Virus record (IMG/VR): IMGVR_UViG_3300020408_000008
Span: 1-44,253 of that record
Source of the DNA: a virus
Reading direction: 5' to 3' (one strand)
DNA: 44,253 nucleotides
Made by a program: the position numbers and the translations under genes. Within the stretch, counting starts at the first letter, position 1. The number at the start of each line of letters is the position of its first letter. The notes below the pieces were generated by a model that was not told the origin of the DNA, ran no database searches, and was given only the letters and a program-made list of their open reading frames with translations. Shown here piece by piece: positions 4,808 through 32,539 of the stretch.

Positions 4808-5017
4808 CTATTTCATTCTCTCTAAAATTCTATCAATCTTTTCTTCAAGCCTGTTTATTGCAACGGTGACATCATCACGCTTTGCGTAATCTTCTCTGGT
4901 TTTATTTAATAAAATATCTATTCTTTTAACTTCTCTTGATTGCGTTCCCAAAAACCATCCTCCACCTAGAACAATAATACCCATTAATCCGTCAATTATA
5001 TGTACCATATCCATCAA
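4808..5017 (-). CDS. small membrane protein with C-terminal coiled coil
   Basis: 69 residues. One hydrophobic segment (about residues 7-24, containing G-I-I-V-L-G-G-G-W-F-L-G) is followed by a charged helix ending E-E-K-I-D-R-I-L-E-R-M-K. Such single-helix, coiled-coil proteins near terminase/portal genes are common in phages and often labelled holin-like or unknown. It overlaps terL by ATGA (5014-5017). The lysis cassette lies elsewhere (36.9-38.4 kb), so a holin function is doubtful; membrane association is the only property read from sequence. Confidence 0.7.
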   Translation of the reverse strand: MMDMVHIIDGLMGIIVLGGGWFLGTQSREVKRIDILLNKTREDYAKRDDVTVAINRLEEKIDRILERMK

Positions 5018-6534
5018 TAATACTCCACAGGTCTTCTGTATTTAGGTTCATCGTCCCAGTCATCCATAGTTGTTCTGATCCAACCACCTTGTCTAAATCT
5101 TAACAGCGCCTGTGTTGTTGAGTCTACTAAATCGTCATGATCTCCAGCAGGAAAAGACGCACATTCCTCAATAACCTCTTCTGCCCATCTAGTCGGTGGG
5201 TACCAAACAACCCCACTTGCAAATAAATCTGTCACACTGTTAACTCTTGCTATCTTATCCTGTCCACGGCTCGGTGTAAACTCCGTAACTGGTATTCCCA
5301 TGGCTCTAAGCTCAAAAATCAAGGGCGACCCTGCTGCTTTTGCTTCAATAATCATTTGATCTGGCTCAAATTCCCAGTATTTGTCATATGCTGCCCGTTT
5401 TAAATCAGGAAATTCAAGTTTTTCTTTAAATGCATCAATTAAAATTAGATTTGGTCGTGTTTTGCCCTCGTCATCCGGCCCGTGGAAGACGCCCCATGTA
5501 GTGCAGGCGCTATAATCCGCTCTCTGTGTCTTTAAAAACGCTGTGTCCCATGACTGTATTATCGAGTCGCAAGGTGGGAGATCGTTTTTTGTCCATTCTC
5601 TCCACCATTCACGCTTAATTAGCGCTCCTTCTTCCGATGTGGGGTCTTGCTGGTACTGTGCGTTCCATTTTGATACGGGTAATTCTGATTTTAAACTGTC
5701 TAGTTCTTCTTTTTTCCAAAATTCTGGCCACAAAGCCTCACCTGATGGCATTATTGCAGGTAATTCTATGACTTCCCACTCACCTGAACCCTCTCTTTGT
5801 GTGTAATTTTTTAATATTTGTCCTGTTAAATCTCTTTTTGACCATCTTGTCATAACCAAAATAATAGAACCACCCGGCTGTAGTCTCTGTCTTGGTCCTG
5901 ATGTATACCATTCGTACACTTTGTCATAAACCTCAGGATTGTAATCACCTATTGTTGCCTCTTGTTCTGAGTGAGGATCATCAATAACAAGAACATCAGC
6001 GCCTTTTCCTGTTACGGCACCACCTACACCTATAGCAAAGTATTCTCCACCCTTATTAGTGTTCCATCTACCTGCGGCCTTTGAGTCAGAGGACAATGTA
6101 ACGCCTGCGAAAATTTTTTGAAAATCTTCAGACTGTATAAGATTCCTAACCTTTCTTCCAAATCCTACAGATAACTCGGCTGTGTGTGCAGTCTGGATAA
6201 TTTTTTTATTGGGGTACCTCCCTAAAAACCATGCAGGAAATAAATAACTTGCAAACTCTGACTTGGTATGACGGGGTGGCATATTAATAATCAGTCTTTT
6301 CAAATCACCCCGGGCTACCCTCTCAAAAGCATCTGCCATAATCTCATGATGTCTTCCATGGATAAAAGCTGCCCATTGTGATTTAACGAATGGCAGAAAA
6401 CTATCTCTGGCTTCTTCTCTTTGTTTTGCTTGTTCGTATTCTTCAAGAAGTTTCAATACCTCCATCTTCTCATCAGGAGGCAGTGAGCTTATCTGGCTCA
6501 TGTTCTTTTGAATTATCTTGGCAATATCATTCAT
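5014..6534 (-). CDS. terL: terminase large subunit
   Basis: 506 residues, usual length. The ATPase domain has a Walker A variant P-P-R-H-T-K-S (residues 86-92), Walker B V-L-V-I-D-D (181-186) and a motif III-like V-M-T-R-W (228-231). The C-terminal RNase H-like nuclease domain shows S-W-D-T (Asp330), I-I-E-A-K (Glu397) and D-H-D-D-L-V-D (465-471), the expected acidic metal ligands. It pumps DNA through the portal and cuts the concatemer. It overlaps the upstream small gene by 8 bp and the downstream membrane-protein gene by 4 bp. Confidence 0.95.
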   Translation of the reverse strand: MNDIAKIIQKNMSQISSLPPDEKMEVLKLLEEYEQAKQREEARDSFLPFVKSQWAAFIHGRHHEIMADAFERVARGDLKRLIINMPPRHTKSEFASYLFPAWFLGRYPNKKIIQTAHTAELSVGFGRKVRNLIQSEDFQKIFAGVTLSSDSKAAGRWNTNKGGEYFAIGVGGAVTGKGADVLVIDDPHSEQEATIGDYNPEVYDKVYEWYTSGPRQRLQPGGSIILVMTRWSKRDLTGQILKNYTQREGSGEWEVIELPAIMPSGEALWPEFWKKEELDSLKSELPVSKWNAQYQQDPTSEEGALIKREWWREWTKNDLPPCDSIIQSWDTAFLKTQRADYSACTTWGVFHGPDDEGKTRPNLILIDAFKEKLEFPDLKRAAYDKYWEFEPDQMIIEAKAAGSPLIFELRAMGIPVTEFTPSRGQDKIARVNSVTDLFASGVVWYPPTRWAEEVIEECASFPAGDHDDLVDSTTQALLRFRQGGWIRTTMDDWDDEPKYRRPVEYY

Positions 6535-6733
6535 TGTTTTTTATATTTGGTGGACTGCTCTCAATAATCTTTTTAGCTAAGTCTATCATCCACAAACACT
6601 TGTCTGTGTCAACAGACGAAGCAATGAAAAGACTATCATCTTCATCCCAGCCTATCACTATAGGGTCCTGTAACTCAGGCTCATCTTCAGGAATAAATTT
6701 TCTGTAGTCATCTAAGTAAATAATGTTTGACAA
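6527..6733 (-). CDS. small acidic protein upstream of terL
   Basis: 68 residues beginning M-S-N-I-I-Y-L-D-D-Y-R, acidic, with a predicted small mixed alpha/beta fold (D-S-L-F-I-A-S-S strand, then a D-L-A-K-K-I-I helix). Short proteins opening this way occur beside terminase genes in several phages, but I know no function. It overlaps terL by 8 bp and follows the ACTAGT array, so it is probably the first gene of the terL transcription unit. Confidence 0.65.
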   Translation of the reverse strand: MSNIIYLDDYRKFIPEDEPELQDPIVIGWDEDDSLFIASSVDTDKCLWMIDLAKKIIESSPPNIKNNE

Positions 6734-6756
6734 ATTTTCTACTCCACTAGTATACT
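6727..6756 (+). promoter_or_regulatory. possible sigma70-type promoter, antisense to terS
   Basis: A perfect TTGACA (6727-6732), an 18-bp spacer and TATACT (6751-6756, inside the ACTAGT array) read in the plus direction. A transcript would run through the array and antisense to terS. The -10 may be a by-product of the A/T-rich repeat, so this is a weak call. Confidence 0.3.
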
Positions 6757-6880
6757 AGTATTACTAGTTACTAGTATATACTAGTATATAGTTTAATACT
6801 AGTACTAGTTAATACTATGTATAATAATATAATACTAGTATAAGGAAGGTATACTAGTACTAGTACTAGTAAAAACTAGT
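6746..6880. repeat. ACTAGT palindrome array, 12 copies
   Basis: Twelve ACTAGT hexamers, most within TACTAGTA or ATACTAGTAT, lie in 135 bp between terS and the terL unit. The spacing is irregular (6 to about 30 bp) and the DNA between them is nearly all A/T. The hexamer is self-complementary, as expected for a dimeric binding protein, and recurs at 17994-18062 (six copies) and 2127-2146. It sits upstream of a minus-strand unit. A protein-binding array, promoter region or unwinding element are all possible. Confidence 0.75.
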
Positions 6881-7024: not shown

Positions 7025-7549
7025 CTACTCTTTTAAAAGTTTCGATAGTTTTTCCCTGAGTTGCTGTTCAACTTCCACAGAACTCTTATCACTTTCTTTT
7101 ATTTCAGTAACATTAGTAAACATACTTAAACTTTTGCCAATCAATTCTGCTGATCTAACCCTTGCAGTATCTGAGAACTCTTCATTATTCATAAACTCTT
7201 CTAGCTTTCTAATTATTACTTCCTCTTTTTTTATCGCCGACACTTTATTAATCTGCTTTAATTCATCATACATTCTAGCAATTGTATGGGTAATCAATGG
7301 GTTTGCTTTTAACTTACTTGCCATATCTCTTATAGTGTTGTTCTTGGTTTTAGGACTAACATTATAATTTGCTACATATGCATCAACTAAGCTCATTGGC
7401 TTTTTAGGATTACCATCTTTATCTTTACCCATTCCAACTATGTCTTTACAAAAACCCAACTGCTTTGCCGTAAGCTCAGGCTTGGAACTTTTCTTGACTT
7501 TATTACTGCTGACTAATTTTAATTTTGGTTTATCTTTTTTATCTGACAT
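7025..7549 (-). CDS. terS: terminase small subunit
   Basis: 174 residues. A Lys-rich tail (1-25) is followed by an L-T-A-K-Q-L-G-F segment (about residues 26-33) and a helix-turn-helix-like region with D-A-Y, N-T-I-R, A-S-K-L and N-P-L-I-T-H-T-I-A (about 54-91), typical of small terminases that recognise packaging-site DNA. The C-terminal half is helical and charged, for oligomerisation and contact with TerL. It is the first gene of the minus-strand packaging/head module; one small gene and a 291-nt gap separate it from terL. Confidence 0.75.
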   Translation of the reverse strand: MSDKKDKPKLKLVSSNKVKKSSKPELTAKQLGFCKDIVGMGKDKDGNPKKPMSLVDAYVANYNVSPKTKNNTIRDMASKLKANPLITHTIARMYDELKQINKVSAIKKEEVIIRKLEEFMNNEEFSDTARVRSAELIGKSLSMFTNVTEIKESDKSSVEVEQQLREKLSKLLKE

Positions 7550-7561
7550 TTTTTATCTCAC

Positions 7562-7581
7562 AAAAGTTAATAGTAACTTTT
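7562..7581. promoter_or_regulatory. operator palindrome, copy 1
   Basis: AAAAGTTAATAGTAACTTTT is a perfect inverted repeat (8-bp arms, 4-bp centre) 12 bp before the terS start codon. Its core AAGTTA-N4-TAACTT recurs exactly at 12700, 15494, 17902, 21253 and 24807 and with one mismatch at 22915. It probably binds a dimeric regulator near the late promoter. Confidence 0.6.
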
Positions 7582-7810
7582 ACAAAGTAGCACACGAATT
7601 AATAAAAGTGTAGCTTTGTAACTATCTATTTATATTCTCATTTCGTGAAATATCGATTGTCAGCGATTTAAGACGCACACAGCAACGAAAGCACTTCCAA
7701 GCTATGATATATCAAAAAAAGTTGTTTCGTCATTTTTGTTGTCCACCTTGGGTTTCAGTACATTTATGTATATTACTGTAAAATAAAGTATAAAATAGTA
7801 CATTATAAGT

Positions 7811-7839
7811 TTGACTTATTATTCCAAAAAGATTATAAA
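7811..7839 (+). promoter_or_regulatory. early promoter, sigma70-like, with overlapping palindrome
   Basis: TTGACT (7811-7816), a 17-bp spacer and TATAAA (7834-7839) form a near-consensus host promoter with start expected near 7846, just before the structured leader. An inverted repeat ATAAGT-TTG-ACTTAT (7805-7819) covers the -35 element. Its AAGT/ACTT arms resemble the half-site of the window-wide operator, but the spacing differs. It would drive the operon 8126-14932. Confidence 0.7.
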
Positions 7840-7857
7840 ATTACTTCAGGCTCAGTT

Positions 7858-8024
7858 TGCCAACCGAAGATGGGAAGACCCCTCTAGAGACAGAACCTTA
7901 TCGGATACTCTTTGATTTGGAACTGGACTAACTCTCTAGGAAACTGCCTCGAAGTATCTAACTAGTCCAACACCTTAGATACTTTCATTGGGAGGTGGCA
8001 TTTAAGTAAAGGTTTCTATTGGCA
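7858..8024 (+). ncRNA. structured 5' leader with chained pseudoknots, class unknown
   Basis: Four perfect inverted repeats interlock. The closing helix is TGCCAA (7858-7863) with TTGGCA (8019-8024). Helix A is CTAGAGA (7884-7890) with TCTCTAG (7933-7939). Helix B is TGGACTA (7924-7930) with TAGTCCA (7963-7969). Helix C is AAGTATCTAA (7952-7961) with TTAGATACTT (7975-7984). The order A5-B5-A3-C5-B3-C3 is a chain of pseudoknots. A second GATACT at 7904-7909 could compete for the C strand, giving a possible switch. The A/B order recalls P3/P7 of group I introns, but I cannot complete that core. Confidence 0.55.
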
Positions 8025-8046
8025 CGAAAGGTTATTAAATGTGGGC

Positions 8047-8105
8047 AGTTACTGTAGTGCAATGTGTGTTGTGCCTGATGATTACAAAAGTATGAAACAG
8101 TTAAT
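8047..8105 (+). ncRNA. candidate type III hammerhead ribozyme
   Basis: Stem III pairs ACTGT (8051-8055) with ACAGT (8097-8101). The cleavage triplet is GTA (8054-8056), with the cut after 8056. Stem I is GTGCAA (8057-8062) with TTGTGC (8069-8074), including two G-U pairs, closed by a 6-nt loop. Next come CTGATGA (8075-8081), stem II TAC/GTA around AAAA, and GAAA (8094-8097). All conserved core positions are present. The weak point is a U-U pair at the base of stem II (8082/8093), where G-C is usual. It ends about 20 nt before the first early gene. Confidence 0.6.
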
Positions 8106-8125
8106 TAACTTATGGAGTTACTATT

Positions 8126-8428
8126 ATGAATTTCAAAAAACTAAATAAAGACGAAATCAAATTACTTAGACTTTTATCTGATGCTTATAACTTTGGAAAC
8201 ATTGCTGACGTAGATAGTCCGACAGACAAGGAGTTTGGTGGTAAGTTTGTTGGTAACTATGAGACAATGGATTTAGTAAATGAATTAGATCACAATTTAG
8301 TTTCTCAAATATGTAATCCAATAACTAAAGTTATAGTCTCGATAATCGGTCAGGAGTTACATGACCATTGGATAAATGGTTCAAACTATGATGTAGATCA
8401 TTTAATTAAATTAACAGATAGCCAATAG
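8126..8428 (+). CDS. early protein of unknown function, first gene of ribozyme-bracketed cassette
   Basis: 100 residues, acidic and helical, no recognised motif, no membrane segment. Start at 8126 has GGAG about 9 nt upstream in a GGAGTTACTATT leader shared by several early genes. It is followed after 11 bp by a second small gene; the pair lies between the two hammerhead candidates (cuts after 8056 and 8762). Early position suggests a host-takeover or regulatory protein, but nothing in the sequence specifies one. Confidence 0.75.
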   Translation: MNFKKLNKDEIKLLRLLSDAYNFGNIADVDSPTDKEFGGKFVGNYETMDLVNELDHNLVSQICNPITKVIVSIIGQELHDHWINGSNYDVDHLIKLTDSQ

Positions 8429-8439
8429 GAGTAATTATT

Positions 8440-8709
8440 ATGAATTGGGAAATGAAATCTAAATTTACTAACGTAGTTAAAAAGACAATCAATGGTGTAA
8501 ATTACTTTGCAGTAATTAAAAATAATAACCTCAAAGTAATGTCCATCTTCTATCAAAGAGATGGAGTTCATGGCATGACCAAAGTTAGAAAGTATGACAA
8601 TCCTGATTGCTTTGGAAAGCCAACAAAAAGATTTCAAGATTTAGCTAAACATTTTGAAATAAATAGAGAGTTAAAATTAAAGCTAAGATCATTGCATGAT
8701 GTAGCCTAG
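8440..8709 (+). CDS. small basic early protein, second gene of ribozyme-bracketed cassette
   Basis: 89 residues, Lys- and Asn-rich, with a beta-type N-terminal half (V-N-Y-F-A-V-I-K-N, L-K-V-M-S-I-F-Y) and a basic helical C-terminus. No family recognised. TAGGAG precedes the ATG by 9 nt. Its last codons and the TAG stop (8707-8709) form the 5' strand of stem I of the type I hammerhead, so the translating ribosome and ribozyme folding would compete. Confidence 0.75.
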   Translation: MNWEMKSKFTNVVKKTINGVNYFAVIKNNNLKVMSIFYQRDGVHGMTKVRKYDNPDCFGKPTKRFQDLAKHFEINRELKLKLRSLHDVA

Positions 8710-8770
8710 CTGACGAGACCTAGAGAGGTCGAAACATTGAGCAGTTATTACTGCTCTTTGTCCTAGGATA
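8702..8770 (+). ncRNA. type I hammerhead ribozyme
   Basis: All core elements are present in order. Stem I 5' is CCTAG (8705-8709), then CTGACGA (8710-8716). Stem II is GACCT/AGGTC (8717-8721, 8726-8730) with loop AGAG. Next comes GAAA (8731-8734). Stem III begins A-C-A pairing with T-G-T, has a 2x2 U-U internal loop, then GAGCAGT/ACTGCTC (8739-8745, 8750-8756) with loop TATT. The cleavage triplet is GTC (8760-8762), followed by stem I 3' CTAGG (8763-8767). The predicted cut is after 8762, 32 nt before the next start codon. The G-C at the base of stem II is canonical. Confidence 0.88.
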
Positions 8771-8794
8771 ATTTAACAAATAGGAGTTGCTATT

Positions 8795-9088
8795 ATGGAC
8801 TATGAAAAATTACACAAAAAGATATGGGATTTAATGCAGAGTATGCACTCAACGGCTGACCAAATAGATGGCTTGGGCGAAGAGTTCCCTGATATGGCTA
8901 AGGAAATTGACGAGTTCTTTGAACGTCTTAAAAGAGTAGAAAGACTTTATCTTAAAGTTTCTGATAAGTTTCACACTAAGCATAGGGTAGATTGTCCTGA
9001 GGATTACCTAGCTGATGATGATGAAATTTTATCAATCGAGCTTGAAGAAATTCAAGTTGAAGATGACGGCAGAACAATAATTGCATAA
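8795..9088 (+). CDS. small acidic early protein, unknown
   Basis: 97 residues, strongly acidic (Asp/Glu-rich C-terminus), helical, with a heptad-like stretch (E-E-F-P-D-M-A-K-E-I-D-E-F-F-E-R-L). TAGGAG lies 9 nt before ATG. It is the first gene after the type I hammerhead, so its mRNA would carry a 5'-hydroxyl after cleavage. Acidic composition is compatible with a DNA-mimic or protein-binding role, but this is speculation. Confidence 0.75.
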   Translation: MDYEKLHKKIWDLMQSMHSTADQIDGLGEEFPDMAKEIDEFFERLKRVERLYLKVSDKFHTKHRVDCPEDYLADDDEILSIELEEIQVEDDGRTIIA

Positions 9089-9099
9089 GGAGTTGCTTA

Positions 9100-22930: not shown

Positions 22931-25900
22931 CTAACTTGCCTCTCTAAACCCAGCCGACCTCATCAGGATAAGCCCACGCCTCATGAGGTCGTTAATCCTA
23001 TCCCTCCTTATCTTTATAAGATTCTTTATGACTTTCTCATCTAGTCTTGGGTTTCTTTCTATCTCTCTTATTTGTCTTAGTAATCTGTTTCTTGCGTTGT
23101 CTATTGCCTTGAGCCTTGGAACAATACTTAACTGCTCTCTATTATCCCTGAATATTTCTCTTGTTAATTCTACATCACCAGATCGTCTGGCTAAGTCGTA
23201 TCGTGCTAGTATCGTGAATAACGCTTTTCTATTTTCTAAATAACTTGATACATCTTCTCTTTCACTTGGAGATGCTATTACCTTTCTTGCAAAAGGTATC
23301 ACACTAGTTAGTGGTGCTTGTAAGTCCTCGTTGATAGCGTCATATATCCTGAAAGGCGATTCTAGTGATCTTTGAACAAACCTTCCAACACCACCAGTTG
23401 TATAATCAAACCAAAACTCCATAACGTCTGGTGAAAGATCAACAAAGCCACTTTCTACTGCATCTCCTCCTGATATGCTGTTTAAGAAATTAGCTATTGT
23501 TACTGCCGTTCCACTTGTGCTTGACCAATATGCCTGACTATTAGGTGTAGGTCTTGATGCAAATTGAGGTGACTCTTTAAATATAGGGTCACCTTTGTAG
23601 TCCTCGTTGATAGCCACACTGACAAATGGGTCCAGCACTGTAGGAGCTGCCAAGTTATAAAAATTATCAAAACCACCAAAAGGACTTAAACTTTCAAATG
23701 CAGTACCAAATATGGTCCGGCTAGCCTCCCCGGGTGTATACTCGCCCCTAGCAGCTCTCGAAACAGCTCTTCCTGCATTTACAGCTAAATTCATTCCATA
23801 TGCTAATGGTATTGTAATAAATTTATCTTCTGCTAAACCAAATGTTGGTAATACAAAATTATGCTCTAATATATATCTTGGAAGTTCATCGTAGTCTTTA
23901 ATGCCATCTTCATCCTCATCACCTGACAACAATGAATTAAATGCATCTTGCATAACTCCATAAACAAATAATCCAGCCCACACTTTTCTTACCCGCTTCG
24001 ACTTAACCGCAGCGTTTATCAGTGCCATTGATCCTTGCATTGATGCGTTATAAAATAAATACCATGAATTTAAAAATTGCTTCTGCTCTCCACCCTTCGC
24101 AAAGTTAACTGTTAAGTTTCTTGCTGCTTGTGCAGCCCTAGCCGTGCTAACGCCTCTTTTTACAAGCGCTGTGTATAATGAGACACGCACACCATTTTCA
24201 ACTGCTGTGTTGTAATCATCTAAGAACTTACCTAATTTACCAAAACCTTTCTTAACTAATCCTAGCTTTCCTTTTTTACTATTATCAGACACATCACTAA
24301 GTATGCTGTTTATACTATTCATCTGATCTTGAAGATCGTTCATTTGGTTAGTTGCGTTCTTACCACCTGACTCAACAAATTTTGTGTACTCTTTTGCCCA
24401 AAAGCTATCAACATCTCCATCTCTTAGATTCTTAGATATACCTTTCACCGCAGGTAGCGCACTCTTAAGAACTTCAGACATTAAACCTTTTTCATCATAC
24501 TGTTGAACATTCACACCAGCAGTTCCCAAGTCTCTAGCAAAGTTTGGTATAACAAAAGATGGATTGTATGTTGTATTAATATTAGATAAATATCTGTTCA
24601 ATTTACCTAAAGCTCTTGTAAAGCTGCCTACACTATCAGGGGTCATAAATCCTTTCATAGCCCTAGCTATTCTAGCATCGTTAAGTGTTATGTAGACATT
24701 TCTGCCATTTTCTCTAACAGTTAAATACTGTTCTTTTTCACCTAAGTCTTTTGGTATATCATCTTTGTTGAAATAAACTGCACTTATGTGTTGCATTTCT
24801 TTCTTTAAGTTATCGTTAACTTCTGTGGTCCCATCTTCTATGCCCCTAACAAGATTTAAATAACTTAAACCAACCTTGTTTCTTTCAGCATCTGCAATAG
24901 ATTTATTATTTTGTGCAAATAATGTAGCAACTATATTTTCTGCGTAGAAATCTTCTACTTCACCCTCTTTGGATCTTACCCTTCCCCGTGCTTTACGGTC
25001 CGGTCTCTTCGTGGCACCAAATAAATTTTGTATTACAAAGTTTTCGGCTCTCTCTTCTCTTTTGCTGTCGCTATCTGCTTCATCTTCAAAGTTTAAATCA
25101 CCTCTCAATGGAACATAGTTTTCATATATTCTCTCATACTGATTACCTTCTTTATCAGTAAACACCTCTGGAATAAGACCGCCTTGTTTTCTTTCTTCAT
25201 TTGTGTTCTTAACTATAGATTTTGCAAAGTTTTTAATATTTTTTATCTTTGTTTTCTCAGAGTCAGGTAATGTCAATATCCAATTATTTATTCTATCAGC
25301 CTCGTTGGTATGCATACCAGATGCGATTGGGTTTTTTAAATAATCATTCCTCTCTTTCGCATGCGCAGCATAAAGGATGGCATCTGCAAGTGCCATTTTT
25401 CTACTAGGATACCTGCCATCAATTGCTGTTTTATAAAAATTAGATATTCTAGATAATGTATTTAATGAGTCTTGATTAACATCTAATGTATTTATAGTCT
25501 TAATCATTGGGTCAAAAAACTCTTTTTGTGCTTTTTCTACTTTTGCACCTGCTATTCCATGAAATAACTCTTCTTGCATATAAGTATCCATAGCATCTGT
25601 TATTTTAGCACCATTTTCTCTTAGCTTGTCCATTAAAGCACCAATAGGCAAGAATCTATCCTGTATTTGAATCAATAAATTTTGAGCTGCTTTTCTTAAA
25701 TCGTCTTCCTCAACTCTACCTAAAGTAAATTTATGCCCAACCTTTGCTAAAACTCTAGATAAATTATCATACTGTATTTTTATTCTTGTGTTAGATATAC
25801 CTTGATCTATTTCAGCACTCATGGGTGTTTCTTGCTGATTCATAGAAGCAGTGCTTAACATACTTTGTTTAAATAGCTTTTCTTCTGGATAACCTGTTCT

Positions 25901-28900
25901 TATAACAAAAGAATCAAACTTAAATGACGGACTTGTCTCATCTAATTTTTCTCCTCGTTTAACAAATTTTAAAGGCATAACAAATTTATTTTGCTTTGCT
26001 CCTCTTTGTGGGGTCCTGTTAAACTCTAGCCTAACACCTGTGGCTGTAGTGTTAACAATCTCTACGCCATTGTTAACGTCATCCCTATTCTGCTGATAAT
26101 ATAATTTTGCAAGATTGTCATAAAACAAATCTTTTATATTTTTATATTTAAATGTTTCTAATAACTCTTGCTCATGGCTTTTACCAGTTGTCGGTCTTAC
26201 TGCTGTAATGTGATCGTTTCCAAATCCACTATACAAAAATGTATTTCCTCTAGGTATTTCTTCATGCTTACCATCTACAAAAAATACAGGAAGACTTCTG
26301 TTATCTAGATTTATAACACCATATAAATACTTACCCAGCTCTCCTGTTGCACCATATGCAGAGTTTTGTTTGCCAGTTGATATCATGGCAAACTTTTGAT
26401 CGTTTATTGTTTCTTTAATTAACTCTAAATCTTTAGGATCAACGTCTTTAGCCGGATCGTAATCAACTAACTCTTCTTCGGTGTACTCTCTTTTTTCATG
26501 CCCGATATTTGTATCAACCTGTCCAGTAGAATCGATAGATCCTTGTCCTGCACCTCGCTTATCAGCGAGTCGCTCTCGCTCTGTTGGGGGGAGTGCTTCT
26601 CCAATGGTTTGGTCATCTATGCCTTCCTTTCTTAAAAATGCTATTGCTGCGTCTACATAATCGTTATCGCTTCCTTGTCCCGGGGCTACCCCGATGCTCT
26701 TAAATAATCTTTTTTCACCGTACCAATACACGGCCTGTGAGTCAGCAACAGTTATTTGTCTATTAGTCTGTCTGTTATATCTATCAATAACCCTATTATA
26801 TAAAACCCTAAACTGTTTTCTGTTAGTCGGTGTCTTTGGTGTTTCTTGTAATCTTGTCTCTAAGTTTTCAGCTAATCTTTGCGCTCTTGATAAAAACTCT
26901 GTTTTATATGTATCTATAAATTCTTTTGTTCCAAGTTTCTTTCTTCTTATTCTCTCTATATCTTTATTAAATCTACCATTTATTAAAGTAGAAAGCTCTC
27001 CAACATTAGATATATTAATTATATCTGTGCCTAATTCATCTGTTGCAACTTTAATTCTACTAATTTCATCTTCTGTGCCTGACTCTAATGCTTTTTGGAA
27101 CTCTCTAAGCGCATCTTGTTTATTCTTTACAAGAGTTGTTTCTCCTATTGTTCTAAATGGTACGCCAAATATTCTATTTACAAAACGCATAAACCATCTA
27201 TCCATAGTAAGATATTCATAATTTCCTATTATGTTTTGATAAAATGCACCTATTTTACTGCCAAATATAAAAGACATTGGCACCATTTCATCTGCTGTCT
27301 CTTGTTTAAATGTAACCTTACCACCAGTGAGACTTGTTAAAGATTGTATTAATGGATCGTTTTCTATTTCTTTCTTTGATCTAACAACTTGTAAGAACTT
27401 CTTTATCTCCAAGTCTGTCATGCCTTTTTCTTTTTTTAATATATTATATGTTAAAAAAGACTTTTCCATAGCGGATGCTTGACTGCCTTGGTTTTCTAAT
27501 AATAGTTCACCAGTTCTTTCCCAGTTTTCCATTTGTGTTTTTAGTGCATTGCTTTGCGCAACTACTGCCTCACCGTTAGAAGATATAGCTAGTACAAATT
27601 CAAATGCAGCTTCAGCGTTCTTATCAGTTTTAATTATAGGAATTGATATTGCATATAACTCTTTTGCAAGTTTAATCTTATCATCATACCAACCAATAGC
27701 TGATTCATCTGCCTCTACCTGAGCTTTTAGCTCTTCAAACATAGCTAATTCAGCAAGCTCTCTGTCTTCTGCGTTATTTATATCAAGTGTTATATTCCCT
27801 CTTTCCGCATGCAGCTGTTTCACAGCCTCAGTCATTTTTACAGAACCAACTTTAGCTCTTTGTTCAAATTGACCATTTTCATCCATTCTATCTAATATTG
27901 TTAAATCTCTAGGCTTTATGCCTTTTATAGAATACTTCTCAGGATCTGCATCAAAATTGCTATCTGTTAATTCACCAAGACTAGCATCAACCTCAGGGTC
28001 ATTAGTAATAAGATATTTAACAGGCAGTAAATCAACCTTTTGCTCTGCAAACGGCCTATCTGACAGCTTCTCTACACCCAGAGCGCTTTCATTAAAATTG
28101 ACCCAGCTATTTTGTCCCCTTGTTTCTGATGTTAAAGCCCATCTTGCATAGGGGCTTTTAGTCATAATCATGTGATTACGCCAAGCAGCTTCTTCTCCTA
28201 ACGGACCAAAGCCAACAGTGGACATTGTATGCGCATAGTAATCATGGACAGCTCGTAATAAATCATTAACAAGCATAGGTCTTCCGTTTATATCTACTAT
28301 ATTTGTTGGCTCTAATAAGGGGTGATTATCATAGACCACACCTTCAGGTCCAAATGTATCAGCTTCTGTTCCAAAAATATAAAGATGGTTATTGGCAAGT
28401 ATATCTTTTCTCATAGCCTCTGACATTCTAGCGCCTGTATATGGCTCACCTTCGTCTTGATATATCTCTACCTTTATAGGCATAGCATTGTATTGCTCTG
28501 TAACTTCTTGTGCTAATTCAGTATATGCTCTTCTAACAGTTGGGTTGTCTAAGTTATTTATACCCATAGCATCATAGTCTTTTGCTATTTCCATCTGTAG
28601 ATTCTTCTGTTTATCTGTAAGAGTCTTGGCCTGTACAGTTGGGTCTACTAGTCTTTGCGCTAATCTATTAGCTATTCTGTTTGCTGTTTTGTCTGCTTGG
28701 TCGGTCTCTGGGAGTGGAAAGTCGCCTCTAATTTGTTCATAGGAATTTGTGGCCCCGTATCCTGAACCGTAAGCCCAGAGTCTTTCAACTCTTGTATCAA
28801 GGCTTGAAATTCTTGGTCCAAGAAGTTTTCTTGCTCCTCTAACTGATTTTCTGAAGTCTCTGATTGCTGTTCTGTCATTTGGATCTCCTAAATAATAAGC

Positions 28901-31900
28901 CTGAAGTGATTTGTCAGTGACAGTAAAACCTGCCAATCCTGTTTTATCTATTATACTTGATAACTCTTTTGTTGGTATAGACTCTGTTAATCTAAAGCTA
29001 ACCACAGGTGTATTGTAACTGCCATCACCAAACTGATAACCAACTAAATTATTAAACCTTCCAAATCTATCAGCTACTCTTTGTCTTACATGTATTTGTT
29101 CTTGATTAAAGTTTTGAGCAAATTTCTCAAGAGCAGATAAAGCTAGATCTTTTCTTCCCTCATCAAATGTTATCTTCAATCCTACAGCAGGCTCTAGATC
29201 ACTGCCGTACAAGCCGTAGGCTGGAGTTGACTCTACTTCTACATTTGGTATTGCTTGAGTTAAATAATCAACAGAGTTTATTGCAACTTCTTGTAGCGCA
29301 ACCATAGCATCTTCATCACCTTTGTTTGCTGCCTTTTGCAGTTCACTTAACCCAGTTATGCTATCAGTTGCTGCAGATATATTGGCTCTTATCTCACCTC
29401 GTAATTGACTAAACTTTTCCTGATTCTTTCTATCTATCAATGAGACTTCTGTCTCAAAAGGTACATATTTTACATCTGAGGGCAAGTTATCCACAGGCTT
29501 AGGTGCATTATCCTCTGTGTAGAAGTTAACGTTCCCTTTTACAAAAACCTTGCTACCAAGATGAACTGCTGTACCTTTTATAGATTTAACTGCATATCCA
29601 TTTTTATCTGTAAATAAATGAGTTCCATTTATACCTCTGGCTTCGCTACCCGGGTTAAAAGACAAGATGTTATCAGGGTTAGAAACAATATCTTCTATCT
29701 CTTGTCTGGATATATTCGTTATTCCTCCATAACCACCAGCCATAGGGACTTTGTCTTGCTTAACGCCAGTTCTTGTTACACCTTTGTATATGTCAGCCCT
29801 TTTTTGAGGTGACACCATAAGCTCACTATCTTTTATAGCAACAACGCTATCGTATCCCAAAGCAGTGCCGTATGATTTAGCAGGGTGTACTGTTTGCGTC
29901 ATCCCTATGCTACCGTCATCCAATTGCACAAAGCCGTTTAAATTAGGTCTAACTGTAACCATTTGGCCTTCTTCAAGCTGTCTATTCTTAAACAGCTTGT
30001 TCATTATTTTTGTTTGATCTGTAGAGTTTTGTTTATTTGCTCTTATAAACTGCGCTGTCTCTAGAACGTTATCAGGTATAATACTTGGTCCAACCAATCT
30101 ACTTTCTCTTTCTATTGAGTCTTGTAAAGCGTCTGGTGATGCACTCTTTTTCTCTGCCTCAGATACTCTTCTTTGAAAGTTTGTGCTACCGATATCTCTA
30201 AATAAATCACCAGCTTTATTAAATCCTGCTTCTTTGTGTGATTGAAATAATGTCTTAAAAAAGTTTATTATTCTACCAAATAATGTCTTAGGCTTACCAC
30301 CTAACACAATTTTGCCATCAGCAAAGTCTCTGTACAACTCAGCTATAGCTTCTTCTGCCTGCTCTTCTGCTGTGTATTTAGAGCCATCAGACTTAGTCTG
30401 ATACATTCTATTAGCTCTATCTAGATATGTGTATTTTCTTTCTACCTTTTCACCATTAATAATCTGTACATATTTTCTATTTTTGGCTGCATTTACTAAA
30501 ATATTCTGTTCTTGCTGTGTAAATACGCCTAACTCAAACAAAGCATGTATTATTTCATGATTCATTACAGAGCCTAATCTTTGCTGTAACTCTGTTTCTG
30601 TAAGGCTTGGGTCATATATTTCCATAGCTAGAGCTATAGTTTTATTAGAGTACACACCCTCCGTTACAGTCCCTTCTGCTATCGCTTCTTCTGGCCGCTG
30701 TCCTCTAGGTGTAAGTATAGGTTTAAAATCTAACTTAATATTACCTAATCCAATAGCAGCTAAAGATGCCTTCAATGATTTTTGTACTGCACTTTGTTTT
30801 GCTTTGTACTCATCTGTTTTGAAGTTTGCATTGTCAAATGCGCTCTTTGCTTCTAGTGGTGGTATTATTTGACCTAGACGAATTACATTTTTACCCAGTT
30901 TTCTGTCTGATCTACTTGCTAAATTAGTCGCTGCCTTAGATGTGTCGCTGTATTTCTTGCTTAGATCATCTATCTCTCCATTAATCTCATCTAGTCTATT
31001 AACTTGATCTATGGATAAATCACCTATAGCACCCAACTTTTTCTTTTCTTTTTGTAGTTTATCCATATCTTTCATAATGGACTTAACTCTTGCTTTTAGT
31101 TGCTCTGACTTAATCCTAATATCCTGCTCTTCAGATAAAGTGGCAACTAACTTGGCTTTGTCTTTCTTTATAACATTGTTTTGTAATAACTTATCTCTAA
31201 TGCCATTTATCTTCGATTGAGGTATCGGCTTTTTGCTTTTAGTTTTTAGCGCCTTCTTAGCTATGGCCTGTGTAAACTGCCCTTCTTTTTTAACAGCATC
31301 TTTTACTTTATTGTAGTCTAAATCTTTTGTATCAGCTTCTAAATCGTTAGTTCTATCTATAGCAACATCAAGCTCTTCTTGTGTAAGAGTCTCCTTGTTT
31401 ATCTCCAAATCGAAATCTGTTGTGCCAGAAACGACATCAGCATATGTAATTTCTTGTATCCTTTTATCTTTTATTTCATCTTGAATATGATTTGGGAGTT
31501 GTGAAAGAGTTACAAACTTGCCATCTGTGCTTTTAAAACTCTCTATATCTTTTTGTTGATTAATAAAATTAACAGCATTTGTGTTCATAGTCTGAACTTG
31601 CTGTGCCATTATTCTATCGTCACTATCTAATTGACTAATTTTGTCAGGCTGTTTGTCTTTATCACCACCTACAATATTACCAACAGAACTAACTGTACCA
31701 CCAACAAGACCTGCCGCAGCAGCGACTTCTATATATGTGTCTAATGCTTCTTGATCCCAAAGAGGTTTACCATCACGATGTCTAGCTAATATTTCTTGAC
31801 CTATTTCAGTTGGAACCTCTGCTGCAACACCTTTACCTGCTCCTTTTACAGATCTGGTAAATAACCCACCACCAGATAATAATTTACCAGCAAAACCAGC

Positions 31901-32539
31901 AGTGACTAAAAGATCCCCTAATGTGTCTAATGCGGCCATAGGAGCGGCATATGTAAGCGCTTTTAGCTGATTGACCTCGCCTGTTACTGGGTCCGTAGAT
32001 GCAGGAACACTGTCACCATAAAAATATGGCAAATTAGCAAGACCAGCACCTATCAATGTTCCTATTTTTATACCGCCTATTGTACCTGCAGGACCTAAGA
32101 AAGATCCGACAGCTCCACCTATAACCGATGGGGCTAAATTTGGTAACTGCTCACCAAACACAGATGCCGCATAATCCCCAAATGTGGAAAGATTATTAAT
32201 ACTATCTAATCTTCGTGCATCCTTTGCTTGCTCTTCTAATTGTCTAGTATTTTCTTCTGATACTTCTTGCCCATAATTTACAAGACCTTCTATACCAAAA
32301 CCTTTACCAACACCAACAAGAGCATCACCGTATGCTCTTTGTAACTGATCTATCCCTCTTGATACACCTTTTGTAAATAAATTACCATCATCAGGAACTT
32401 GCTCTGTAACTTTCTCTTGACCTCGTAAAGCTAAAAACTGCTGTATTTCAAGAGATTCTTGCTCTGTAGGAGTGTCTCCATCTATCTCAAATGTATATAA
32501 TCTGCCATCTAATGGATTGCTAACGTCAAATGTTGCCAT
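22931..32539 (-). CDS. giant polyvalent virion protein with HExxH and LPD38-like C-terminus
   Basis: 3202 residues, 22% of the window. Residues about 135-300 hold glycine-rich hydrophobic segments that may insert in membrane; 400-560 is coiled coil. N-H-E-I-I-H-A-L near residue 661 is an HExxH zinc-protease motif. Around 1430-1490 V-H-D-Y-Y-A-H, a W-R-N-H segment and S-E-T-R-G-Q-N-S-W form a conserved domain of phage polyvalent proteins. The final ~600 residues (N-L-T-V-N-F-A-K-G-G near 2800, I-N-E-D-Y-K-G-D-P-I near 2970) resemble LPD38. Such proteins are thought to be packaged and injected with DNA. It follows the transglycosylase-bearing internal protein by one base. Domain names are from memory, not a search. 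Confidence 0.8.
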   Translation of the reverse strand: MATFDVSNPLDGRLYTFEIDGDTPTEQESLEIQQFLALRGQEKVTEQVPDDGNLFTKGVSRGIDQLQRAYGDALVGVGKGFGIEGLVNYGQEVSEENTRQLEEQAKDARRLDSINNLSTFGDYAASVFGEQLPNLAPSVIGGAVGSFLGPAGTIGGIKIGTLIGAGLANLPYFYGDSVPASTDPVTGEVNQLKALTYAAPMAALDTLGDLLVTAGFAGKLLSGGGLFTRSVKGAGKGVAAEVPTEIGQEILARHRDGKPLWDQEALDTYIEVAAAAGLVGGTVSSVGNIVGGDKDKQPDKISQLDSDDRIMAQQVQTMNTNAVNFINQQKDIESFKSTDGKFVTLSQLPNHIQDEIKDKRIQEITYADVVSGTTDFDLEINKETLTQEELDVAIDRTNDLEADTKDLDYNKVKDAVKKEGQFTQAIAKKALKTKSKKPIPQSKINGIRDKLLQNNVIKKDKAKLVATLSEEQDIRIKSEQLKARVKSIMKDMDKLQKEKKKLGAIGDLSIDQVNRLDEINGEIDDLSKKYSDTSKAATNLASRSDRKLGKNVIRLGQIIPPLEAKSAFDNANFKTDEYKAKQSAVQKSLKASLAAIGLGNIKLDFKPILTPRGQRPEEAIAEGTVTEGVYSNKTIALAMEIYDPSLTETELQQRLGSVMNHEIIHALFELGVFTQQEQNILVNAAKNRKYVQIINGEKVERKYTYLDRANRMYQTKSDGSKYTAEEQAEEAIAELYRDFADGKIVLGGKPKTLFGRIINFFKTLFQSHKEAGFNKAGDLFRDIGSTNFQRRVSEAEKKSASPDALQDSIERESRLVGPSIIPDNVLETAQFIRANKQNSTDQTKIMNKLFKNRQLEEGQMVTVRPNLNGFVQLDDGSIGMTQTVHPAKSYGTALGYDSVVAIKDSELMVSPQKRADIYKGVTRTGVKQDKVPMAGGYGGITNISRQEIEDIVSNPDNILSFNPGSEARGINGTHLFTDKNGYAVKSIKGTAVHLGSKVFVKGNVNFYTEDNAPKPVDNLPSDVKYVPFETEVSLIDRKNQEKFSQLRGEIRANISAATDSITGLSELQKAANKGDEDAMVALQEVAINSVDYLTQAIPNVEVESTPAYGLYGSDLEPAVGLKITFDEGRKDLALSALEKFAQNFNQEQIHVRQRVADRFGRFNNLVGYQFGDGSYNTPVVSFRLTESIPTKELSSIIDKTGLAGFTVTDKSLQAYYLGDPNDRTAIRDFRKSVRGARKLLGPRISSLDTRVERLWAYGSGYGATNSYEQIRGDFPLPETDQADKTANRIANRLAQRLVDPTVQAKTLTDKQKNLQMEIAKDYDAMGINNLDNPTVRRAYTELAQEVTEQYNAMPIKVEIYQDEGEPYTGARMSEAMRKDILANNHLYIFGTEADTFGPEGVVYDNHPLLEPTNIVDINGRPMLVNDLLRAVHDYYAHTMSTVGFGPLGEEAAWRNHMIMTKSPYARWALTSETRGQNSWVNFNESALGVEKLSDRPFAEQKVDLLPVKYLITNDPEVDASLGELTDSNFDADPEKYSIKGIKPRDLTILDRMDENGQFEQRAKVGSVKMTEAVKQLHAERGNITLDINNAEDRELAELAMFEELKAQVEADESAIGWYDDKIKLAKELYAISIPIIKTDKNAEAAFEFVLAISSNGEAVVAQSNALKTQMENWERTGELLLENQGSQASAMEKSFLTYNILKKEKGMTDLEIKKFLQVVRSKKEIENDPLIQSLTSLTGGKVTFKQETADEMVPMSFIFGSKIGAFYQNIIGNYEYLTMDRWFMRFVNRIFGVPFRTIGETTLVKNKQDALREFQKALESGTEDEISRIKVATDELGTDIINISNVGELSTLINGRFNKDIERIRRKKLGTKEFIDTYKTEFLSRAQRLAENLETRLQETPKTPTNRKQFRVLYNRVIDRYNRQTNRQITVADSQAVYWYGEKRLFKSIGVAPGQGSDNDYVDAAIAFLRKEGIDDQTIGEALPPTERERLADKRGAGQGSIDSTGQVDTNIGHEKREYTEEELVDYDPAKDVDPKDLELIKETINDQKFAMISTGKQNSAYGATGELGKYLYGVINLDNRSLPVFFVDGKHEEIPRGNTFLYSGFGNDHITAVRPTTGKSHEQELLETFKYKNIKDLFYDNLAKLYYQQNRDDVNNGVEIVNTTATGVRLEFNRTPQRGAKQNKFVMPLKFVKRGEKLDETSPSFKFDSFVIRTGYPEEKLFKQSMLSTASMNQQETPMSAEIDQGISNTRIKIQYDNLSRVLAKVGHKFTLGRVEEDDLRKAAQNLLIQIQDRFLPIGALMDKLRENGAKITDAMDTYMQEELFHGIAGAKVEKAQKEFFDPMIKTINTLDVNQDSLNTLSRISNFYKTAIDGRYPSRKMALADAILYAAHAKERNDYLKNPIASGMHTNEADRINNWILTLPDSEKTKIKNIKNFAKSIVKNTNEERKQGGLIPEVFTDKEGNQYERIYENYVPLRGDLNFEDEADSDSKREERAENFVIQNLFGATKRPDRKARGRVRSKEGEVEDFYAENIVATLFAQNNKSIADAERNKVGLSYLNLVRGIEDGTTEVNDNLKKEMQHISAVYFNKDDIPKDLGEKEQYLTVRENGRNVYITLNDARIARAMKGFMTPDSVGSFTRALGKLNRYLSNINTTYNPSFVIPNFARDLGTAGVNVQQYDEKGLMSEVLKSALPAVKGISKNLRDGDVDSFWAKEYTKFVESGGKNATNQMNDLQDQMNSINSILSDVSDNSKKGKLGLVKKGFGKLGKFLDDYNTAVENGVRVSLYTALVKRGVSTARAAQAARNLTVNFAKGGEQKQFLNSWYLFYNASMQGSMALINAAVKSKRVRKVWAGLFVYGVMQDAFNSLLSGDEDEDGIKDYDELPRYILEHNFVLPTFGLAEDKFITIPLAYGMNLAVNAGRAVSRAARGEYTPGEASRTIFGTAFESLSPFGGFDNFYNLAAPTVLDPFVSVAINEDYKGDPIFKESPQFASRPTPNSQAYWSSTSGTAVTIANFLNSISGGDAVESGFVDLSPDVMEFWFDYTTGGVGRFVQRSLESPFRIYDAINEDLQAPLTSVIPFARKVIASPSEREDVSSYLENRKALFTILARYDLARRSGDVELTREIFRDNREQLSIVPRLKAIDNARNRLLRQIREIERNPRLDEKVIKNLIKIRRDRINDLMRRGLILMRSAGFREAS
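24807..24822. promoter_or_regulatory. operator palindrome, copy 7, inside giant gene
   Basis: AAGTTA-TCGT-TAACTT is an exact match to the operator core within the coding sequence of the giant protein, and its right flank GTTAACTTCTGTGG is identical to copy 2. It may be functional or a chance match under coding constraint. Confidence 0.35.

Follow-up and report, generated by a model that had tools for sequence, protein, structure and literature searches.

A pair of hammerhead ribozymes of types III and I in the early operon of a marine phage and its putative role in splitting the early message

The early polycistronic RNA of phage T7 carries RNase III processing sites between its genes. Hammerhead ribozymes of types III and I differ in where their RNA is cut: the type III cut falls close to the 5′ side, so that the ribozyme body remains on the downstream RNA, and the type I cut falls close to the 3′ side, with the body remaining on the upstream RNA. 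Clustered hammerheads flanking genes were described in prophages, and the processing of mRNA to operon or gene length was proposed as their function (Perreault et al., 2011; PMC3088659). These arrays cleave in vitro, and the A. tumefaciens array also cleaves in E. coli; the same work noted a natural U10.1–U11.1 mismatch, which was reported to support cleavage (PMC3088659). In the haloviruses HF1 and HF2, a transcript 5′ end lies within 3 nt of the hammerhead cleavage site (PMC3088659). Given the precedents of Perreault et al. (2011), the class of ribozyme is not new, and the same holds for the general idea considered here. What hammerheads do in prokaryotes and phages has been called an open question (PMC6155905, PMC10085705).

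The window analyzed here is the whole stretch of 44,253 nt that forms IMG/VR record IMGVR_UViG_3300020408_000008. It contains a type III and a type I hammerhead (Table 1), two members of a large set that is found in marine virus contigs and is for the most part unannotated. Type III elements of this set have the topology, the core and the NUH rule in common with known type III hammerheads, including the U10.1–U11.1 variant (PMC3088659), but they usually carry U.U at this position, a UGUGU loop in stem I and a RAAA tetraloop in stem II, and they give no match to the Rfam type III hammerhead. As in the prophage clusters of A. tumefaciens (ardA), C. scindens and A. caulinodans (PMC3088659), several ribozymes flank single genes within one transcript; the present elements differ in lying in marine virus contigs, in being often arranged as a type III head followed by type I elements between genes, and in reaching up to 16 copies with a fixed spacing of ~20 nt before start codons. 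The HHphage element of HF1/HF2 (PMC3088659), in a lytic virus, likewise directly precedes the first early gene, but its core has a two-nucleotide insertion and no array was described there. A literature search in open papers found no description of a marine phage hammerhead set. As far as these papers and Rfam go, the large marine set, the combination of a type III head with intergenic type I elements, the fixed spacing, the copy number and the Rfam-invisible type III form are new.

Table 1. Hammerhead elements, adjoining genes and predicted processing product in the window
Feature	Start	End	Strand	Evidence
Type III hammerhead, U10.1.U11.1 variant	8046	8106	+	R1 73.8 bits; R3 69.8 bits; covariation
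Type III stem III 5′ strand, last base U16.1 (8055)	8051	8055	+	
Type III H17 = A (GUA triplet); cut predicted 3′	8056	8056	+	
Type III stem I hairpin, conserved UGUGUG loop	8057	8074	+	
Type III core CUGAUGA, stem II U-UAC-AAAA-GUA-U, GAAA, stem III 3′ strand	8075	8101	+	
Predicted excised mRNA, 706 nt, two genes, hammerhead body at both ends	8057	8762	+	Inferred from predicted cut sites
First early gene, 100 aa, no family match; RBS GGAG 8114–8117 after type III ribozyme	8126	8428	+	
Second early gene, 89 aa, no family match; stop codon inside type I stem I	8440	8709	+	
Whole type I hammerhead as modelled	8700	8772	+	R2 76.3 bits; Rfam RF00163; covariation in relatives
Type I stem I 5′ strand CCTAG, includes TAG stop 8707–8709	8705	8709	+	Sequence
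Type I core CUGACGA (C3–A9)	8710	8716	+	Sequence
Type I stem II GACC/GGTC (G10.1–C11.1), loop TAGAGA	8717	8730	+	Sequence
Type I core GAAA (G12–A15.1)	8731	8734	+	Sequence
Type I stem III ACA/TGT + GAGCAG/CTGCTC, two U.U mismatches; A15.1–U16.1 closes	8734	8761	+	Sequence
Type I H17 = C, GUC triplet (8760–8762); cut predicted 3′	8762	8762	+	Alignment to hammerhead models
Type I stem I 3′ strand CTAGG; predicted 5′-OH end of downstream mRNA	8763	8767	+	Sequence
Gene downstream of type I ribozyme, 97 aa, no family match; AGGAG 8782–8786	8795	9088	+	

The type I element reads TGTAG-CCTAG-CTGACGA-GACC-TAGAGA-GGTC-GAAA-CATTGAGCAGTTATTACTGCTCTTTGT-C-CTAGG-ATAAT, and its identification as an early-operon hammerhead of type I is supported by the core, the stems, the NUH triplet, covariation in relatives and a significant Rfam score. 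A preliminary description made from the sequence alone had proposed such a hammerhead, and its structural claims were borne out: every conserved core position is present (CTGACGA, GAAA, GTC), three stems can form with stem I open and a G–C pair at the base of stem II, and stem I makes use of the stop codon of the upstream ORF. In relatives, the CUGANGA and GAAA core with the A15.1–U16.1 pair is invariant or nearly so, G10.1–C11.1 is present in 24/24, and close relatives also keep the stem II loop and the stem I flanks, the regions that a putative tertiary contact between stems I and II would involve. The term “near-perfect” used earlier describes the element fairly, but its Rfam score is below the curated cut-off: the proposed covariance check returned RF00163 (Hammerhead_1) as the best Rfam match to 8704–8768, with 29.8 bits and E = 1.3e-5 (301 nt, all families), against a gathering score of 34 bits, which is a database cut-off and not a structural feature. 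For this reason the default Rfam scan of the whole window reported no family at its gathering score. The core, three stems, topology and GUC triplet are shared with RF00163; the window element differs in its long stem III with two U.U mismatches and in the overlap of stem I with a stop codon. The RAGATH-1 hammerhead (RF03152) has a type I-like core in common with the element, which scored 20.7 bits against a gathering score of 56.3 and does not belong to that family. In a scan for all three hammerhead topologies, the motif score of the element was 47, and the whole window, shuffled 60 times with dinucleotides preserved, never scored above 32. The hammerhead fold has −24.5 kcal/mol when the core is kept unpaired and the unconstrained minimum −25.6 kcal/mol, 1.1 apart with tertiary energy excluded; unconstrained minimum-energy folds pair part of the core, and their gap to the hammerhead folds is 1.1–1.3 kcal/mol.

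The earlier reading of a single hammerhead was right for type I but incomplete, as the window holds two such elements and both are part of a multi-copy set. The type III hammerhead, overlooked at that stage, sits in the long gap that precedes the first early gene; in relatives, such an element recurs near the start of the same operons. It has the core, an NUH triplet and all three stems, of which stem III is open; the closing pair of stem II is not G10.1–C11.1, and the rare U10.1.U11.1 mismatch is found instead. The element may be slow, because U.U occupies the normally most conserved pair of stem II and A17 is less favoured. Rfam models applied to 7500–8300 gave no hammerhead match at E ≤ 10. 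The R1 (type III) and R2 (type I) models contain the window's own sequences, so their scores in the window are not independent; independent evidence there comes from Rfam for type I and, for type III, from R3, a covariance model of 21 relatives with the window left out, which found the element with 69.8 bits (E = 6.8e-18). A search of the window for further copies of either type, with filters off, revealed none that was convincing.

The 85-nt gap with the type I element had been called the only sizeable one between two early genes. It is the sole such gap between the early genes downstream, but a larger one (7550–8125) precedes the first of them. The predicted type I cut leaves a 32-nt leader before the downstream gene, with its own ribosome-binding site AGGAG. 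The genes that follow the two predicted cuts have near-identical leaders, GGAGTTACTATT-ATG (8114–8128) and GGAGTTGCTATT-ATG (8783–8797). PHROGs and Pfam assigned no function to the genes adjoining the ribozymes, and a DNA search with 8440–9088 and with each ribozyme found no relative among GenBank phages. No clear sigma-70 promoter stood out upstream. No tRNA was found in the window, which gives no tRNA-linked (theta-like) context. A candidate structured non-coding RNA at 7840–8060 was rejected, its folding energy being equal to that of shuffles (z = 0.13). The large terminase subunit (TerL) has 55% identity to that of Pelagibacter phage HTVC027P, which suggests a SAR11-like host. In the late region, one ORF of 3202 aa spans 22931–32539 (9.6 kb).

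Comparison with related contigs revealed local differences around the pair. The leader 7864–8051, upstream of the type III cut, is unalignable with contig L002, and both flanks are 96–98% identical; such a leader, if discarded, would be free to vary. In contigs L009 and L005, genes between and beside the ribozymes (region 8126–9094) have been exchanged, with identities of 46% or 73% or with the gene absent. The type I ribozyme shows no difference there and its type III partner hardly any, as if the ribozymes marked cassette borders.

In pattern scans of IMG/VR, the type III form was present in at least 119 stretches and the type I form of the window in 25. With the R1 model, 94 loci were searched and 162 type III copies recovered; with R2, 53 loci yielded 73 type I copies. 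The collections are metagenomic, and both totals depend on the search patterns used and include related contigs. The view that hammerheads are uncommon in phage genomes, expressed in the preliminary description, fails for this phage group. In the type III alignment (38 sequences), 99.8% of cells were paired, and 204 both-side changes were found, with 12 of the 14 pairs changing on both sides. The covariation score was 0.988 versus 0.246 for shuffled alignments and was destroyed when the partners were slid by one to three bases. For type I (24 sequences), the corresponding values were 93.8% of cells, 104 both-side changes and 15 of 17 pairs, with a score of 0.713 versus 0.185, and the sliding controls collapsed. 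Compensatory change was massive in all three stems of both types. Scored without constraint, position 16.1 of type III was U in 102/102 cases and position 17 was A, U or C, never G. All 65 type I sequences had U16.1, and their H17 was C in 49, A in 15 and U in one, with no G. The NUH cleavage rule had no exception where it was tested, and this pattern of U16.1 and H17 is, at the level of sequence, the signature of working hammerheads.

Two classes were found among the type III copies. A or U occupied position 17 in 111/114 of those with U10.1.U11.1, and C17 was present in 18/23 of those without it (Fisher p = 3e-15 for the association, kinship not corrected for). The U.U form made up 120 of the 146 scored type III copies, partly because the search pattern favoured it. 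Canonical G–C type III copies with the same loops are present in related contigs, an argument for seeing in the U.U form a tuned variant of one RNA and not a separate RNA. The clustering of U.U with A17 or U17, as opposed to C17, suggests two speed classes, for which a difference in cleavage rate is predicted.

The position of the elements in relatives was also regular. The distance from the type III end to the next start codon had a median of 22 nt and was ≤40 nt in 106/126 cases (10% at random); for type I, the median was 21 nt, with ≤40 nt in 47/63, and these elements overlap the upstream stop-codon region (median −5). Midpoints of type III copies fell into same-strand ORFs of ≥80 aa in 12/129 cases versus 66 expected. 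Of the copies that seemed to lie inside an ORF, one (L133) was checked, and the intragenic position was rejected: an RBS and an ATG lie 3′ of the ribozyme, so the annotated start is too early. All copies were on one strand in 58/58 multi-copy loci. The richest locus, L136, has 16 copies in an 11-kb stretch, with a type III head, type I after nearly every gene and a second type III further on; a stricter scan counted 14 copies there and none in 100 shuffles. In L094, as in L153, a single type III element precedes four of type I. The window itself contains a multi-hammerhead phage operon in the arrangement of Perreault et al. (2011), with two hammerheads that flank genes on one strand. In the first 50 kb of HTVC027P, HTVC023P, 023Pt_psg01 and DSL-LC04, no descriptor match was found and R1 scores were ≤19.2 bits. 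Over this length, the two cultured pelagiphages among them, HTVC027P and HTVC023P (TerL identity of 52–55%), had no good hammerhead, so this lifestyle does not require the elements.

The type III class was also found in ten contigs of bacterial MAGs (L224–L233; Gammaproteobacteria, Patescibacteria and uncultured bacteria), which may be phage DNA binned with its hosts. A Paceibacterota MAG contig (L234; JAGVDT010000057.1) has nine type III hammerheads at 4825–6840 in an apparently non-coding array with spacing of 150 and 300 nt, where GC-rich hairpins close the units, with a TTTGATTCATTAGCTCATTGC element in their place in every second unit. This array, for which Rfam gave no match, is not an mRNA-punctuation context. 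In addition, Mu-gpT-DE RNA matches occur in two contigs of the phage group, at 17679–17731 of L064 and 10491–10538 of L036.

The motif, the structure supported by covariation, the position, the orientation and the copy number of these elements are established. Most probably, the type III and type I pair serves as protein-free punctuation that divides the early polycistronic mRNA into gene-sized mRNAs. The pair would cut the nascent early transcript of the marine phage: a cut after A8056 would remove the 5′ leader and leave the type III body as the 5′ end of the first mRNA, and a cut after C8762 would keep the type I body on the two-gene mRNA as its 3′ end and give the next gene a fresh 5′-OH end (8763), the short leader and its own RBS. 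Each gene could then gain independent stability and translation. Catalysis, the order of the cuts and this benefit to the phage are what we infer from sequence. The T7 RNase III sites likewise cut early polycistronic RNA between genes, but there the cleavage of a hairpin depends on protein and no ribozyme is involved. Copies in relatives, up to sixteen, almost always lie just before a gene and so probably split a long message into gene-sized ones; related phages appear to punctuate between nearly every early gene.

Several other explanations were weighed against punctuation. A chance motif or a decayed relic has a negligible probability: simple CTGANGA..GAAA patterns are frequent (24 in the window versus 20 expected), and this pattern alone is useless as an identifier, but the full-structure scores exceed those of all shuffles, and the very strong covariation with constant position and strand refutes such an origin of the structure. 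The hairpin could also be an intrinsic terminator or attenuator with an incidental hammerhead likeness, and a pattern scan did flag stem III (GAGCAG...CTGCTC followed by TTTGTCC) as terminator-like. The same scan yields such sites at about the shuffled rate, however; most relatives lack a U tract after stem III while keeping the core, the NUH triplet and stems I and II, and both-side changes occur in all three stems, which makes this reading highly improbable. It is very unlikely, too, that the paired ribozymes excise and circularise the intervening RNA or mark a mobile RNA element of retrozyme- or viroid-like nature. The order of type III and type I would keep both bodies on the excised segment, its 5′-OH and cyclic-phosphate ends could be joined by RNA ligase, and the swapping of genes around identical ribozymes among relatives would fit such an element. 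Nevertheless, these segments are protein-coding and carry ribosome-binding sites, the searches of window proteins recognised no reverse transcriptase among those covered, and circular products were sought in the prophage arrays by Perreault et al. and not found (PMC3088659).

More weight is given to the possibility, still a doubtful one, that these are real hammerheads whose main role is to form stable mRNA ends or to act in regulation (as slow, ligand-, Mg2+- or helicase-responsive elements) and not to separate cistrons. The division into a U10.1.U11.1 class with A17 or U17 and a C17 class, with the two speeds that it suggests, is consistent with regulation, which was also proposed for the halovirus HF1/HF2 hammerhead located 13 nt before an early helicase gene (PMC3088659). 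Copies between nearly every gene, as in L136, and the near-constant spacing fit constitutive punctuation better.

The set comprises hundreds of copies, mostly ~20 nt before start codons, sense-oriented where several are present and numbering up to 16 per contig, and it makes the hypothesis of mRNA punctuation directly testable. It represents a hammerhead class that Rfam misses and, for synthetic biology, a source of compact natural cassettes with which operons could be split. For the marine phage group as a whole, it is tentatively proposed that hammerheads might be the standard divider of early operons into monocistronic mRNAs, with fast G10.1–C11.1/C17 elements and slow U.U/A17 type III elements at the operon heads. 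If so, each early message would owe its timing and its stability to how fast and in what order the ribozymes cut themselves, with no nuclease involved.
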